Shown here one piece after another: positions 8,581-40,297 of a DNA stretch of 64,000 nucleotides. The notes beneath the pieces are model-generated. The model was not told the DNA's origin and did no database searches. It saw only the letters and a list, made by a program, of their open reading frames with translations. Source of the DNA: Nitrospira tepida (GTDB lineage Bacteria; Nitrospirota; Nitrospiria; Nitrospirales; Nitrospiraceae). A program made the translations under genes and the position numbers. Position 1 is the stretch's first letter. Each line of letters begins with the position of its first letter. The stretch covers positions 2,636,001 to 2,700,000 of the forward strand of contig NZ_OX365700.1 of the NCBI RefSeq assembly GCF_947241125.1, written 5' to 3'.

Positions 8581-8643
8581 CTGATTCCACATTCCTCATT
8601 TCGCATTTCCTATTTCCCATTCCTCATTTCGCATTTTCATTCT
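8581..8643. repeat. CATTCCTCATTTC repeat tract
   Basis: At least four imperfect units (CATTCCTCATTTCGCATTTC, then CATTCCTCATTTCGCATTTT). It leads directly into the duplicated leader at 8644. An 87-codon open frame across it is repeat-derived and is not called. Confidence 0.65.
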
Positions 8644-9324: not shown

Positions 9325-9806
9325 CAGTCATTCCTCATTTCTCAATTCCCATTCCTCATTTCCCATTCCTCATTTCCCATTCAGCCCCTCAGCACTGAGC
9401 ATCCAGCCCTCAATCCTCACCACCTTCTAAGAGCACTTCCATATGTATGTTCAGCCATTTACGTGTTAACTCCTCATTTTTAACTTCACATTCCTCATTC
9501 CCCATTCTGAACCCTTTCCTCAGCAGCCAGCCCTCAGAACTGCCGAGCAGCCGCTGTACGACGGACGGGTGACAATTGACGTTTGTTCTCCCTCCGGTAG
9601 CCCTTTCTTCGCAAATTTCTCATTCCACATTCCTCATTCGTCCTCATTCGGGCTCTATTAGCCAGCACTCAGCACTTCTTGGCGTGACCCCGGGTGTCAC
9701 AGCCACCAGGTATCCTGCATGCCCATGAACTGGCAGGAATCAAGGCGACAGCATTCCACATTCCGCATTCCACATTTCGCATTCCACATTTCGCATTCCT
9801 TATTCG
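9325..9806. repeat. Large block of intergenic repeats before the defence operon
   Basis: CATTCCTCATTTCCC units dominate 9329-9380, 9468-9512, 9612-9645 and 9748-9803. CACTCAGCAC units fill 9385-9415 and 9660-9683. At 9680-9703 the motif TTGGCGTGACCC and GGGTGTCAC forms a small palindrome (GTGACCCCGGGTGTCAC). No protein-coding gene is supported in 9263-9919. Confidence 0.65.
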
Positions 9807-33299: not shown

Positions 33300-33415
33300 C
33301 GAGCGAACATTCGTCATTCGTCACTCGTCATTCGTCACTCGTCATTGGTCATTCGACGGGTGTCTCCTTCTCGGTCTGTAACGAATGACGCTTGACCATT
33401 GACCATTGACGCATG
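33300..33415. repeat. GTCATTCGTCACTC-type intergenic repeat tract
   Basis: Six or so units of the form CGTCATTCGTCACTCGTCATT, and after a break TTGACCATTGACCATTGACG. Similar units occur near 45598-45690 and 52180-52262. It follows the SIMPL gene directly. The rest of the gap to 33488 shows nothing else. Confidence 0.6.
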
Positions 33416-35005: not shown

Positions 35006-35222
35006 CCATCCTGCCTCCGGCGCTCCGTCTCGATCACTACCGGATGCTTGTTCCTCACATTGGACCTCTTGCGACGGGCCCCTCGCAACGATCCTTCCGG
35101 CGTTTTGACCCGATAAAAAACCGCATGCTATAGTCCGCCGTTCCGTTGCGAGGGCTGGTGACCGACCTTCGGCCCCTTGTCCGCGCATGCCCATTATCTC
35201 CCTACAGCAGAGGTCACGATCC

Positions 35223-36590
35223 ATGGTTGAAATGCCTGTCAGGATGTATCTCTCGGCGCTCCTCAAGAAGGCGCGCGAATCCGTCACCCCCATGGCCCTG
35301 CTCTCGGGACCGGTGAAGGAGGCCACCCTTCGGACTGTGGCCGAGCTGATTACCGAGCGGACGGACGACCTCTTGGCTGCCAACCGGGAGGATGTCCTGG
35401 CGGTGGGGAAAAGCCTCGAAGGCGAGAAGGATAAGGACCGGGTCAAGGCGGCGGTCAATCGCGTGAAGCTGGCGGAGGATGACCTCAAATTGATGGCCGA
35501 CCGTATCCAGCGCGTAGCGGATCTCGACGATCCGGCGGGGCAGGTGGTCGAACAGGGAGAGCGGCCGAACGGCATGCAGGTCCGGCGAGTCCGGGTTCCC
35601 ATCGGCGTGCTCGGGATCATCTCGGAGCTGAACCCCAATACCACGATGGAGATCCTGGCGCTTTGCTTCAAGGCCGGCAACGTGTCGGTGTTTCGCGGCG
35701 CGCCCGAATGGGCGGCCACCCATCAGGCGCTGGCGTCCCTGCTGCGGGAAGCGGGAGAGCGGCACCGGATTCCGGCGGCGGCCATCACCCTGATCGACCG
35801 GCCCGAAAAGGACGTGGCGTTGGAACTGATGCGCGCGACACGCCAACAGATCGACGCGTTGATCGTCCGCGGCGGAGCAGGGCTCCGTAAGGCCGTGGCC
35901 GACACGTCCCGGCTCCCGATCCTCTGCCATGACGGGGCGGTCAATCACATGTACGTCGACGGCGAAGTCGATATCCCCATGGCGCAAAACCTCATCGTCA
36001 ATGCCAAGGCGCAACAGCCCTCGGAGTCCAGTTCCGTGGACACGGTCCTGGTCCAACAGAACATCGCACGCCAATTCCTGCCGGCCCTGATCCGCCGCTT
36101 GCTCGATGAATTCAACGTGGATGTCCTCGGCTGCCCCAAGACGGTCGCCATGATCGGGGCGCAACCGTTGCCGCGGTATCGGAACCTGGTCCCGGCTTCA
36201 GACGAAGATTGGGGCAAGCAATTTCTCGCGCCGACCTTGGCGGTCAAGATGGTCAAGGATCTGGACGAAGCCTTGGCGCATATCGCGCAATATGGGACCG
36301 GCCATACCGCTGTGATCGCTACGCGCGACTATGCCCATGCCATGCGGTTTGTGCGCGAGGTGGATGCGGCGGCCGTGCTGGTCAATGCCTCGTCGCGGTT
36401 GCACGGCGGCGAGGAGTTCGGGTTGGGCGGGGAGGTGGGACTCAGCTCGTCCCGATTGCATGCCCGGGGGCCGATCGGTCTTGAGGCCTTGACCATCCTC
36501 AAATACGTCGTGCTCGGCACCGGCCAGTTGCGACACCCGCATCCGGTCCCGACGGCGTATGAAGATGCCATTATGCTCAAGCGGTTTTAG
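35223..36590 (+). CDS. ProA-like glutamate-5-semialdehyde dehydrogenase, catalytic Cys replaced
   Basis: 455 residues from ATG 35223 (an alternative ATG is at 35187). The fold is that of gamma-glutamyl phosphate reductase: RVPIGVLGIISELNPNTTME, FKAGNVSVFRGAPE, HGGEEFGLGGEVGLSSSRLH and GPIGLEALTILKYVV. Canonical ProA reduces gamma-glutamyl phosphate in proline synthesis through a Cys in a P-S-x-C-N motif. Here that motif reads PSESSSVDT: the Cys position (residue 269) is Ser and the Asn is also Ser. No proB is adjacent. It may be a paralogue with another role or an inactive form, so I give no gene symbol. Confidence 0.85.
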   Translation: MVEMPVRMYLSALLKKARESVTPMALLSGPVKEATLRTVAELITERTDDLLAANREDVLAVGKSLEGEKDKDRVKAAVNRVKLAEDDLKLMADRIQRVADLDDPAGQVVEQGERPNGMQVRRVRVPIGVLGIISELNPNTTMEILALCFKAGNVSVFRGAPEWAATHQALASLLREAGERHRIPAAAITLIDRPEKDVALELMRATRQQIDALIVRGGAGLRKAVADTSRLPILCHDGAVNHMYVDGEVDIPMAQNLIVNAKAQQPSESSSVDTVLVQQNIARQFLPALIRRLLDEFNVDVLGCPKTVAMIGAQPLPRYRNLVPASDEDWGKQFLAPTLAVKMVKDLDEALAHIAQYGTGHTAVIATRDYAHAMRFVREVDAAAVLVNASSRLHGGEEFGLGGEVGLSSSRLHARGPIGLEALTILKYVVLGTGQLRHPHPVPTAYEDAIMLKRF

Positions 36591-36654
36591 TCTCGTATTC
36601 GTGAGAGGTGAGTCGTGAGACGGAAGACGTAGGGTCTCTATGCGAGGACCCCGC

Positions 36655-36716
36655 TCTTCCATTTCATATTTCTCACTTCACATTTCTCATTTCACATTTC
36701 TCATTTCAGTTTCACA
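36655..36716. repeat. CATTTCTCATTTCACATTTC repeat tract
   Basis: Four units of CATTTCTCA(T/C)TTCACATTT directly before the methyltransferase start; the same family as the island tracts but outside the island. It leaves no clear ribosome site for the following gene. Confidence 0.6.
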
Positions 36717-36720
36717 TCCC

Positions 36721-38238
36721 GTGACCGGCACGGAACTGCAGGAAGCCATCGCCGACCATCTGTTTTGGTGGGATCTCCGCCCGTTCACGTCCGACCGTGA
36801 CTACGAACGCTGGCAGCGCGAGCGTCTCCAGGCCGCCGATCTTCATCAATTGAACCTGCTGGCCGAAGCCCGCCACCGGAATCCCTGCGAAGCGGAGCCG
36901 GACCTGGCCTTCTATGAATTTGCGGCGCAGCCCCGGATCTACCCGGTGCTCTATAGTCAGCGGTTCGACTACTACCTGACCGTGGGCGCCGCCATGCTGC
37001 CGCGTCTCGATCAGTCGCGGCTGGTGCTGGACTTCGGCTGCGGCTTGGGCATTCTGACCACTCTCTACGCCCGGCAATATCCAACGGTCTCGTTCGTCGG
37101 ATTGGACCGGTCGCCCGGTTCCATTGCCGTAGCCCGTGAACGGACCGCCGCCCTGGGTTTGAAGAACCTGACGTTCATGGCGCTCGACCCTGACCGCGAA
37201 TCGTTCACCGGCTCATACGATACGGTCGTCTCCAGCCATTCGCTGTTTCAGTCGGAACAGGACCCGGGCCTCCCAAGCCGATCGTGGGACAGCTTCGCAC
37301 GGGCGGTCGATCCGGCGGCCCAGCAAGCATTCGAAGCCAGAACGGGTTTGGGCCGCCGGCTGGATTGGATTGTGAGCCTCCTGGCTCCGGCAGGACGGTT
37401 ATTGCTGTTCGAGAAGGCCCGCCATCTCGGCCGGCGCATCGGCTTGCAACGCGCCCTGGCTGGACGCGGACTTGCGTGCGTTGACCCATCGTTGCCATTG
37501 CATTACCTCTCGGTCGAGGAACCCACCGACGATGGGCCGCTGTTTGTTCTGAGTCGGCACGGCGATCACGCGGCGATTTATCCCTGGGATGAATCGCCTG
37601 AGCGAACCGACGGCGACCATCATTTCATCTGCAAAGGGGTAGCCGCCGAGTCCGTCTGGTCCCGCCTGCCTCGCCGCCGCGTGACACGAAGCCTTTTGTT
37701 CAAGCCGCCCGGGTTGTCTTCCGGCCAACTCGAATGGGGCCGTTCTGACCGGCTTCGCTATCTCTCTCTCGCCCGCGCAAGCGGCGCCCGTGGTTTATGG
37801 GTGGGACTGCCTGGGCCGGACGATGAGCTGGACGGCTCCCTGTTCCGCTCAGTGGCCTCGGCCGATACGATCACATCCGAACACCTGCAACGGCTCGATG
37901 AACTGTTGGCTGCCCGGGGACTCGAGGATGACCCGTCCTTGGTTCCACTCTACGAGAACCATACGGCGGCCGCCCAGTTGTTGTGGAGCGAGCTGCCCGC
38001 GAAGACCCGCCTTAAAGAATATGACTCGCCGCTGCCGGCCGGCCGCCATCTCCATATTGAGTTGGGACGGACGGGAGACCTGTCCTATCTCTACTGCGCC
38101 AACACCTTCGATCAACGACAGCTTGTCCTGGTTGAATCCGATCGCCAATCTCTGCTCGAGCAATATTTCGAAGAACTCACCTCCAGAACGGCTCTGTCCG
38201 CTCCTGTCTCGGGCCATCCCACTGGCCCATCGCGGTAG
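36721..38238 (+). CDS. SAM-dependent methyltransferase-domain protein
   Basis: 505 residues from a GTG at 36721; the start is uncertain because repeat DNA precedes it. The N-terminal region (SDRDYERWQRERLQAADLHQ) is followed by a class I methyltransferase core with motif I VLDFGCGLG and FVGLDRSPGSIAVARERT, then YDTVVSSHSLFQSEQ. The C-terminal 250 residues are of unknown type. It precedes two B12-type radical SAM genes, suggesting a shared pathway. Substrate unknown. Confidence 0.78.
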   Translation: MTGTELQEAIADHLFWWDLRPFTSDRDYERWQRERLQAADLHQLNLLAEARHRNPCEAEPDLAFYEFAAQPRIYPVLYSQRFDYYLTVGAAMLPRLDQSRLVLDFGCGLGILTTLYARQYPTVSFVGLDRSPGSIAVARERTAALGLKNLTFMALDPDRESFTGSYDTVVSSHSLFQSEQDPGLPSRSWDSFARAVDPAAQQAFEARTGLGRRLDWIVSLLAPAGRLLLFEKARHLGRRIGLQRALAGRGLACVDPSLPLHYLSVEEPTDDGPLFVLSRHGDHAAIYPWDESPERTDGDHHFICKGVAAESVWSRLPRRRVTRSLLFKPPGLSSGQLEWGRSDRLRYLSLARASGARGLWVGLPGPDDELDGSLFRSVASADTITSEHLQRLDELLAARGLEDDPSLVPLYENHTAAAQLLWSELPAKTRLKEYDSPLPAGRHLHIELGRTGDLSYLYCANTFDQRQLVLVESDRQSLLEQYFEELTSRTALSAPVSGHPTGPSR

Positions 38239-38395
38239 TCTCGATCCGGCTCAGGGGTAGCTCACCGATAGTCAGACTCCTCGGCGTTCCGGCCTTGACC
38301 CTTGAAAACACGCCAGCTTACAATGCGGAGGTTCGCATGATCGTGGCCTTCATCTTTTGATACGTCTGCCGCTGCCACAAGGCAGCGGGCATGAT

Positions 38396-40297
38396 ATGCG
38401 CGTTGAGTATTCCAAGGGCAATCGCGCTTCCAAGGAGCTGATTCAGCTCCATCGCCGGACTTCTTTCCAGGCCAACGGCCGGAAGATGACGGTCATGCTT
38501 GTCTTCCCGCCCGACTGGTTTCCCTCCGAACCGTACCTGAGCCTTCCCTCCCTCACCTCCGTCCTCCGCCAGGCCGGCCACCGGGTCATCCAAAAAGACG
38601 TAAACCTCGAGATGTGGGACTGGTACTTCAGCGAGGACTTTTTGAAGAAGGTCCTCCGGCGGGTGCCTCAGCAGTTGGACCGTTTTCGTAAGCTCTCCAG
38701 GAAGCGCGAGTTGGCGGAGTGGGAGCTGGATGTCCAGATGGCGCTGTGCGATGTGACCCGGCGTCGGATCGACGAGCTGATCAAGAAGGCCGAACAAGCG
38801 AAGCGGATCGTGCGGGAAGAAGAGAATTTCTACGATATCGATAAGTTGGAATGGGCTATTCAAGTCTTCCGCGAGGTCACACAGGTCATTTCGCTGGTCT
38901 ATTCGCCGGCGCGTATCTGCATGCCGCCGATGGAAACGGATCTCTCTTACAAGCCGTATGTCTCGGCGGAGGTCATGGACGCGGTGGAGGACGAACAGGT
39001 AAACATCTACCGCGACGTGTTCGAGCAGATCCTCAGGCCGGCCATCGTAGATGAAAAGCCGGACGTAGTCGGCATCTCAATCGTGCTCCAGCAGCAGATC
39101 TTCTCCTCGATGACGTTCTGCGCCCTGATCAAGAAACACTTTCCCCACATCCATCTGACGATCGGCGGCAACACGGTGACGCGTCTGCGGGACGTGCTTC
39201 CCAACTCGCCGCTGTTCCAATATTTCGACAGTGTCGTGGTGTATGAAGGGGAGACGGCGTTCGTCCAACTGGTCGAAGCCGTGGGTGCCGGAAGAGATCT
39301 ATCCGACGTGCCCAATACCGTCTATAAGGATGATAAGGGCGTGCATGTGTCGCCCACCACATATGCCGAAGACATGGCCGCCCTGCCGCCGCCCGATTTC
39401 GACGGATTGCCGCTGGAGAAGTATTTCACGCCAACCAAGGTGCTGCCATATCTGGCGACGCGCGGCTGCTACTGGGGGCGCTGCGAGTTCTGCGACCACG
39501 GCGAGGGCTACACGGCCGGTTACCGGTCGAAGAAAATCCAGGACGTGCTCAACGACATCAAGCACCTCAAAGACAAATACGGCGCCCGGCATTTCCACTT
39601 CACCGATGAATCCTATCCGCCCGCGCTGTTTCGCAAGCTCACGCGCGGCCTCATCGAGAACAAGATCGAGATCTTCTGGACGACACACATGCGGTTCGAG
39701 AAAAGTCTCTTGGAGGATGCCGTCTGGGAGGACGCGAAGAACTCCGGCTGCCGCTATTTGCACTTCGGCTATGAGTCGGGAAACGAGCGGGTCCTCAAGC
39801 TGATGGACAAAGCGACGACGACCGAGGTGATGACCAGGCATCTCAAGTATACGGCGGAGGCGGGCATCTGGAACCACTGCATGGGTTTCTTCGGCTTTCC
39901 AGGAGAAACGAGGGAGGAAGCCTGGCAATCCGTGCAATTCCTGGAGCAGAATAAACATTATGTCCATTCGCTGGGCTTCGGCACGTTCGATCTCGGGCGC
40001 CACAATCCCGTGGCCAAGCATCCGGAACGATGGGGGGTGACGCCTTACAAAAATCCGGATTGGGATCTGGCGCTCGACTACTACTTCACCGTGAAAGAAG
40101 GGTTGAGCATCGAAGAGGCGGAGCGGGTGTTCCAGGAATTCGAACGGAATCATTACGCAGGCTGGGACCTTCGCCTCTACATCCGGGAGTATATTTTCCT
40201 GTACGTCTGCCGGTTTGGGCTGAATAAGTTGCCCGATCTGCAATACCAGGCGGCAAAGGTTTTCGGCCAGACGCCGACACTGGCAGGTAAGATGTAA
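38396..40297 (+). CDS. B12-binding-type radical SAM protein 1 (CX4CX2C)
   Basis: 633 residues. The N-terminal half has a B12-binding-like Rossmann region (VMLVFPPDWFPSEPYLSLPS, VVGISIVLQQQIFSS, HLTIGGNTVTRL). The radical SAM core has the cluster motif RGCYWGRCEFCDHG, which is C-x4-C-x2-C instead of C-x3-C-x2-C. Further blocks are HFTDESYPPALF and GYESGNERVLKLMDKA, GFFGFPGETREEA. It would use SAM and [4Fe-4S] for radical chemistry, perhaps methylation. A hairpin terminator follows. Paralogue of the next gene; substrate unknown. Confidence 0.85.
   Translation: MRVEYSKGNRASKELIQLHRRTSFQANGRKMTVMLVFPPDWFPSEPYLSLPSLTSVLRQAGHRVIQKDVNLEMWDWYFSEDFLKKVLRRVPQQLDRFRKLSRKRELAEWELDVQMALCDVTRRRIDELIKKAEQAKRIVREEENFYDIDKLEWAIQVFREVTQVISLVYSPARICMPPMETDLSYKPYVSAEVMDAVEDEQVNIYRDVFEQILRPAIVDEKPDVVGISIVLQQQIFSSMTFCALIKKHFPHIHLTIGGNTVTRLRDVLPNSPLFQYFDSVVVYEGETAFVQLVEAVGAGRDLSDVPNTVYKDDKGVHVSPTTYAEDMAALPPPDFDGLPLEKYFTPTKVLPYLATRGCYWGRCEFCDHGEGYTAGYRSKKIQDVLNDIKHLKDKYGARHFHFTDESYPPALFRKLTRGLIENKIEIFWTTHMRFEKSLLEDAVWEDAKNSGCRYLHFGYESGNERVLKLMDKATTTEVMTRHLKYTAEAGIWNHCMGFFGFPGETREEAWQSVQFLEQNKHYVHSLGFGTFDLGRHNPVAKHPERWGVTPYKNPDWDLALDYYFTVKEGLSIEEAERVFQEFERNHYAGWDLRLYIREYIFLYVCRFGLNKLPDLQYQAAKVFGQTPTLAGKM

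Follow-up and report, generated by a model that had tools for sequence, protein, structure and literature searches.

A ProA (gamma-glutamyl phosphate reductase) homolog encoded by Nitrospira tepida, designated ProA2, lacks the catalytic cysteine of this enzyme family, and its gene lies directly upstream of a class I SAM methyltransferase gene in every genome of the order Nitrospirales in which it was found. The reading we favor, at a probability of roughly 0.5, is that ProA2 is a ProA-derived pseudoenzyme that acts as a scaffold or regulator of the methyltransferase encoded directly downstream. The analysis started from a DNA stretch of 64,000 nucleotides (here termed the window), taken from a genome that consists of one contig (4.73 Mb) and belongs to family f1 of Nitrospirales. 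The features identified are listed in Table 1.

Table 1. Features of the proA2 region, with positions in the window and the evidence or remarks for each.
Feature	Position	Strand	Evidence or remarks
Sigma-70-like promoter match upstream of proA2 (TTGACC-18-TATAGT, TG before the -10)	35105..35134	+	Weak evidence
proA2, Cys-less ProA paralogue, 455 aa	35223..36590	+	NCBIfam/Pfam matches, orthologue alignment, tree clade, AF2 model
Ser-Ser at the canonical Cys-Asn site (codons 269-270, TCC AGT)	36027..36032	+	Codon reading and alignment
C-terminal tail HPHPVPTAYEDAIMLKRF, clade-specific, past the canonical ProA end	36534..36587	+	Pro441 and Asp448 in 57/57 ProA2
Methyltransferase gene paired with proA2 (532-aa ORF)	36640..38238	+	Pfam Methyltransf_25 and others
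Core class I SAM-methyltransferase domain (residues 129-205 of the 532-aa ORF)	37024..37254	+	Pfam, AF2 model
Methyltransferase C-terminal repeat 1, missing in most f1 relatives	37621..37914	+	hhalign, alignment
Methyltransferase C-terminal repeat 2, conserved (YENH...YLYxANTFDQRQ)	37951..38199	+	hhalign, alignment
CATTYCN-like arrays	2612-2652, 8592-8636, 9328-9382, 9751-9799, 33308-33355, 36660-36717		

An earlier note on this DNA had described an intact gene for a ProA-like protein with a conserved fold, and the coordinates, the residue number 269 and the motif that it gave are all correct. The frame is open over its full length, counted from the ATG at 35223; this codon was preferred to a longer in-frame start at 35187 because orthologues start at MVE(V/M)P. 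In profile searches, ProA2 scored 422 bits against NF001221 and 336 bits against TIGR00407, which exceeds both curated cut-offs (289 and 317, respectively), and by sequence family it is therefore ProA. The best structure matches of its AF2 model (mean pLDDT 74, pTM 0.59, weak from residue 381 onward) are likewise ProA proteins (1o20: Z 37.2, rmsd 3.3, 388 residues aligned). Residues 264-276 read QQPSESSSVDTVL, i.e. P-S-E-S-S where ProA has P-S-x-C-N, and Ser269-Ser270 align with the Cys-Asn of the E. coli, T. maritima and other ProA structures. Thus, both the codons and the alignment confirm that the catalytic Cys is lacking and that the following Asn is also replaced by Ser. Two sigma-70-like promoter matches were found in the region (0.7 expected), and no terminator-like site was found between proA2 and the methyltransferase gene.

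Comparative analysis of 57 distinct orthologous sequences, picked out by residues 134, 163 and 273, revealed that position 269 is occupied by Ser (20), Thr (15), Ala (13), Pro (8) or Gly (1) and never by Cys, in tallies that count distinct sequences and not independent events. Since all 71 other ProAs, read in the same way, have Cys at this position, its absence from ProA2 is neither strain-specific nor due to chance or sequencing error; the earlier note had reckoned with such an error or mutation if orthologues carried Cys, and none does. Asn270 is retained in 55 of the 57 sequences, the exceptions being Ser in the window protein and Thr in the relative closest to it (G020/L005), so the loss of this residue is atypical within the clade. 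In the window genome and 60 relatives, full-length ProA2 matches show 45-63% identity to the window protein, and the canonical ProAs form a separate set (42-49% identity, full-length matches). Phylogenetic analysis of 32 ProA2 sequences together with 17 canonical ProAs from Nitrospirales and 32 others placed ProA2 in one clade (support 100/100), whose stem measures 0.64 changes per column.

The active site of ProA2 is dismantled coherently, with several catalytic and substrate residues gone besides the Cys. Among 49 canonical ProAs, 118 columns reach a conservation of 93% or more; 70 of these are retained in at least 80% of 32 ProA2, and the retained canonical residues include Arg216 and Asn153. 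The lost columns include Cys269, Asn139, Arg137, Tyr134, Glu273, Glu333, Lys235 and Ser359. Asn139, by analogy with ALDHs the putative oxyanion-hole Asn, is lost in 56 of the 57 sequences and Arg137 in all of them; Glu273 is replaced by Asp, Glu333 by Gln or Lys, and Lys235 by Gly, Cys or Ser in 57/57, Tyr134 by Ser in 56/57, Ala163 by Trp in 55/57 and Ser359 by Pro in 53/57. The catalytic role of the Cys has been described for T. maritima Cys255 and Drosophila P5CS Cys598 (excerpts of PMC4271523 and PMC8963878): the reductase mechanism requires it, and Cys598 makes the thioacyl intermediate (PMC8963878). According to a review (PMC10650815), ALDH18A1 has just one member of the ALDH catalytic triad, namely this Cys. 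ProA2, with Ser in the window and Cys in 0/57 orthologues, lacks this hallmark of a ProA enzyme.

A second hallmark, the substrate-binding Arg712 and Asp715 of Drosophila P5CS (excerpt of PMC11061531), was mapped onto ProA2 residues 392 and 395 by the RFxD pattern. It is also incomplete: Arg392 is present in 57/57 sequences, and Asp395 is present in 12 and lost in 45 (Gly in the window). The specificity residue close to the Cys, E. coli Glu383 (PMC4271523, in part), maps to position 404, where E (28), D (24), Q (3) and G (2) were found. Arg525, which contacts adenine (PMC8963878, in part), maps via the plant P5CS alignment to position 196, with K (28), R (17), P (11) and H (1), i.e. Lys or Arg in 45/57. 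Judging from these residues, ProA-type catalysis has very probably been abolished, and cofactor binding may survive in part. This weighs against the favored reading: with Arg392 invariant and Lys/Arg196 kept in 45/57 sequences, a ligand may still fit the pocket, or other chemistry may take place there.

ProA2 also extends beyond the usual end of the family. The canonical ProAs compared (17 from Nitrospirales and 8 others) terminate at GQ(I/V/L)R(E/Q/S) and lack the tail of ProA2 (consensus GQLRxPHPVPxxYEDAIMLK).

Clustering of neighboring genes revealed one SAM methyltransferase gene directly downstream of proA2. Among the 146 genomes of the order with a completeness of at least 90%, 138 contain both genes and 8 contain neither (G149 and G157 of family f1, four genomes of f2 and two of f4). 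In all 138 carriers proA2 is located directly upstream of the methyltransferase gene; the two share contig and strand, and the ends of their profile matches are 18-320 bp apart. In a phylum-wide sample of 245 genomes, 77 encode the methyltransferase, of which 76 have ProA2 over the strict cut and the remaining one (G004) has a split ProA2; no carrier of either gene was found outside families f1 and f3 among these 245 genomes. A pattern-based, non-exhaustive scan of 84,980 species genomes yielded full-length ProA2-like matches almost exclusively in records with Nitrospirota names (Nitrospira, Nitrospirae, Nitrospirales, Nitrospiraceae, Nitrospiria and Nitrospirota, plus one Nitrospinota). The Nitrospinota-labelled contig (L036) carries ProA2 in the neighbor order typical of f3, and a naming or binning problem is probable.

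Apart from the methyltransferase gene, the neighbors of proA2 differ between families: the f3 loci contain a divergent run of genes whose translations resemble, by eye, rpsB, tsf, pyrH, frr and alr, and the f1 neighbors are different. In a mirror-tree analysis, the partial correlation of ProA2 with the methyltransferase, given canonical ProA, was 0.33 (as high in 50 of 2000 permutations), lower than that of ProA2 with canonical ProA (0.70), and the signal specific to the pair is weak. The proposed partnership of the two proteins is deduced from the linkage of their genes.

A connection of the gene pair with nitrite oxidation is suggestive at most. In a TIGR03478 search (tool name DMSO_red_II_bet) of 19 chosen genomes no match reached the family cut-off. 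Matches of roughly 435 aa, which we take to be NxrB-like, are present in f1 and f3 genomes that carry the pair; families f2 and f4 gave weaker matches or none. A strict tie is not supported, as an NxrB-like match is present in G157, which has no pair, and missing from G005, which has one.

Two further observations concern these loci. Genome G013 encodes another complete Cys-less ProA2, accompanied by a methyltransferase gene of its own (L147; G013:C1:28000-41000); as this genome is listed at 5% contamination, the additional copy may be a contaminant. In the window, the pair is followed by a gene with B12-binding and radical SAM domains (38357-40297) and then by a second gene of the same cluster; this arrangement recurs in the f1 relatives L034, L116, L117, L118, L121 and L125, and not in the others.

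The downstream protein has the glycine-rich loop of motif I (LDFGCGxGILTxxYA; Asp131, Gly135, Gly137 and Asp156 invariant in 28 sequences) together with the fold of a class I SAM methyltransferase. Its true start is probably the GTG at 36721 and not 36640, since translation from the latter would cross the tandem repeat at 36660-36717 and the GTG fits the orthologues better. The AF2 model and the structure matches cover residues 55-309, the part to which the structure search was mainly confined, and the core is shared with NodS (3ofk, Z 16.0), ChlM (4qdk, 15.4) and UbiG (4kdr, 14.8); the best NCBIfam matches are far below their cut-offs. Beyond this core, the protein has an extra N-terminal helical stretch and one or two C-terminal repeats. 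Repeats 1 and 2 are related to each other (hhalign probability 96.7, E 4.7e-10), and no Pfam match over the cut-off (E at most 1) was obtained for the C-terminal part. These alpha-beta repeats (37621-38199) may represent an undescribed domain.

We interpret ProA2 as a non-catalytic subunit or regulator because the Cys has been lost, the fold has been kept, new features have become fixed and the gene is never separated from that of the methyltransferase. According to this model, proA would have been duplicated long ago in the ancestor shared by two Nitrospirales families, giving rise to proA2; the product of proA2 would have lost the catalytic Cys and further active-site residues while retaining the aldehyde-dehydrogenase fold, and would now serve the downstream class I SAM methyltransferase as a scaffold or allosteric regulator. 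The old pocket perhaps still binds a nucleotide or another small ligand, and the fixed surface changes and the new C-terminal tail are candidate contact sites. A physical complex of the two proteins, and regulation through it, are what we infer from this arrangement. In a more specific and more tentative version, ProA2 might be an obligate, prozyme-like subunit of a methyltransferase of unrelated fold; methylation might then be gated by a metabolite sensed in the pocket of ProA2 that formerly accommodated glutamyl phosphate.

The strongest alternative, which we regard as rather unlikely, is that ProA2 is an active enzyme with changed chemistry (without a thioester) that works in the same pathway as the methyltransferase. 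It could, for example, bind NADP(H) together with an acyl phosphate or imine, reducing the latter directly, and the methyltransferase would use the same metabolite. In favor of such an enzyme are the retained Rossmann and ALDH fold, the retention of Arg216, Arg392, Asn153 and 70 of the 118 canonical columns, and the residues newly fixed (53-57 of 57) at the former active-site positions 134, 163, 273 and 359. However, position 269 offers no conserved nucleophile, no Cys has been newly fixed in the clade, the oxyanion-type Asn139 has disappeared from all but one of the 57 sequences and the substrate residue Asp395 from 45, and the specificity residue 404 varies (E/D/Q/G).

ProA2 is not necessarily required for proline synthesis, since a canonical ProA (motif PSTCN; C1:2999075-3000253) and a ProB (C1:1399795-1400877) are encoded elsewhere in the same genome. 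The earlier note had envisaged a second, canonical proA next to proB; both genes exist, but they are not adjacent. The same note considered that ProA2 might be the only ProA of the genome, and the separate canonical copy shows that it is not. ProA2 could nevertheless be a dead partner of canonical ProA or ProB that regulates proline synthesis, with the adjacency of the methyltransferase gene reflecting shared expression: its paralogue, canonical ProA, is encoded in the same genomes, ProA forms oligomers in its structures (“EcGPR tetramer”), and dead-paralogue regulators have general precedent (PMC10211241, in part). We consider this role improbable, given that proA2 lies away from proA and proB in its own genome and from canonical proA at the other loci examined, that its strict partner is the methyltransferase gene (138/138), and that families f2 and f4 possess canonical ProA without ProA2.

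The earlier note had proposed Ser269 as the nucleophile and raised the question of its conservation. Ser is not conserved, and because the residue at this position varies (S/T/A/P/G), no replacement nucleophile is conserved there; Ser269 was therefore rejected as a substitute. A relocated cysteine was likewise rejected: of the invariant cysteines of ProA2, Cys148 and Cys304, the second is also canonical and the first sits in an LCLK stretch also present in the E. coli and Burkholderia ProA structures, and Cys at position 235 occurs in only 26/57 sequences. An esterase- or acyltransferase-like reaction with Ser269 (or Thr) as the nucleophile would suit the 35 of 57 sequences, that of the window included, that have one of these residues, but it is very hard to reconcile with the Ala, Pro or Gly, incapable as nucleophiles, in the other 22 members of the same methyltransferase-linked clade.

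In the two closest genome pairs (>80% identity), the dN/dS values of proA2 (0.043/0.679 = 0.063 and 0.050/0.727 = 0.069) are as low as those of canonical proA (0.051/0.710 = 0.072 and 0.061/0.780 = 0.078), which indicates strong purifying selection in these two close pairs. Over 91 genome pairs the mean identity was 0.575 for ProA2 versus 0.706 for canonical ProA, with ProA2 more conserved in 3/91; this lower overall conservation counts against the favored reading. A decaying pseudogene or sequencing artefact, which the loss of a single motif residue would fit on its own, as would the split copy of G004, can practically be dismissed in view of this low dN/dS, the full-length open frame, the clade-wide loss of Cys with fixation of new residues, and the single unbroken profile match in 137 of 138 carriers (cut at a contig edge in G162); a strain-specific mutation and a frameshift were rejected on the same grounds (orthologues, unbroken matches and dN/dS). 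The split copy (L153; G004:C47), in which the ProA2 match falls into two pieces with the middle unmatched, is the only one among the 138 carriers. The suggestion of the earlier note that selection acts on a different function is in agreement with the purifying selection, the orthologues without Cys and the presence of canonical proA and proB elsewhere. ProA2 thus combines the features of a pseudoenzyme, i.e. an ALDH fold, missing catalytic residues and maintenance by selection, and is predicted from its sequence to be inactive.

With ProA (TIGR00407, NF001221; T. maritima 1o20, E. coli 8zok), ProA2 shares sequence family and fold; it differs in the absence of Cys from 57 members, the replacement of other active-site residues, the extra conserved tail and the genetic linkage, which is to a methyltransferase gene and not to proline genes. 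The human pseudo-aldehyde dehydrogenase ALDH16A1 also belongs to the ALDH superfamily, lacks catalytic residues and is thought to act via protein partners, of which maspardin and HPRT1 have been suggested (PMC10650815). However, it represents another ALDH branch with eukaryotic partners, and the parts of the review consulted mention no methyltransferase linkage. In the PRMT1 enzyme-prozyme and AdoMetDC-prozyme pairs of T. brucei, a dead protein is needed for, or boosts, the enzyme (excerpts of PMC10211241 and PMC6221367). PRMT1 is a methyltransferase, as is the proposed partner of ProA2, but the prozymes described there are paralogues of the enzymes they activate, whereas the partner proposed here has an unrelated fold. 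The likeness lies in the proposed mode of working, for which the evidence in the present case is the gene pairing (138/138). No description of a Cys-less ProA or of the ProA2-methyltransferase pair was found in the open-access literature, the scope of the search being exclusive of subscription papers and preprints.

Because ProA2 passes the ProA thresholds on which automatic naming relies, the label glutamate-5-semialdehyde dehydrogenase is probably given to it and its orthologues, a chemistry that, to judge by the residues lost, is almost surely gone; metabolic models of Nitrospira would therefore be misled by such labels. The proA2-methyltransferase pair constitutes a conserved two-gene module in Nitrospira lineages. 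If the pairing is physical, it would provide a clean, deeply conserved example of an inactivated enzyme that became a subunit of a methyltransferase, with canonical ProA as a natural control in the same cell and with the tail and the residue set as defined targets for mutation.

Imperfect 7-base tandem repeats (CATTYCN-like) form six arrays in the window, one of which is located between proA2 and the methyltransferase gene. The strict form of the pattern (reversed control, 0 matches) has 17 matches genome-wide, 10 of them within the 64-kb window.
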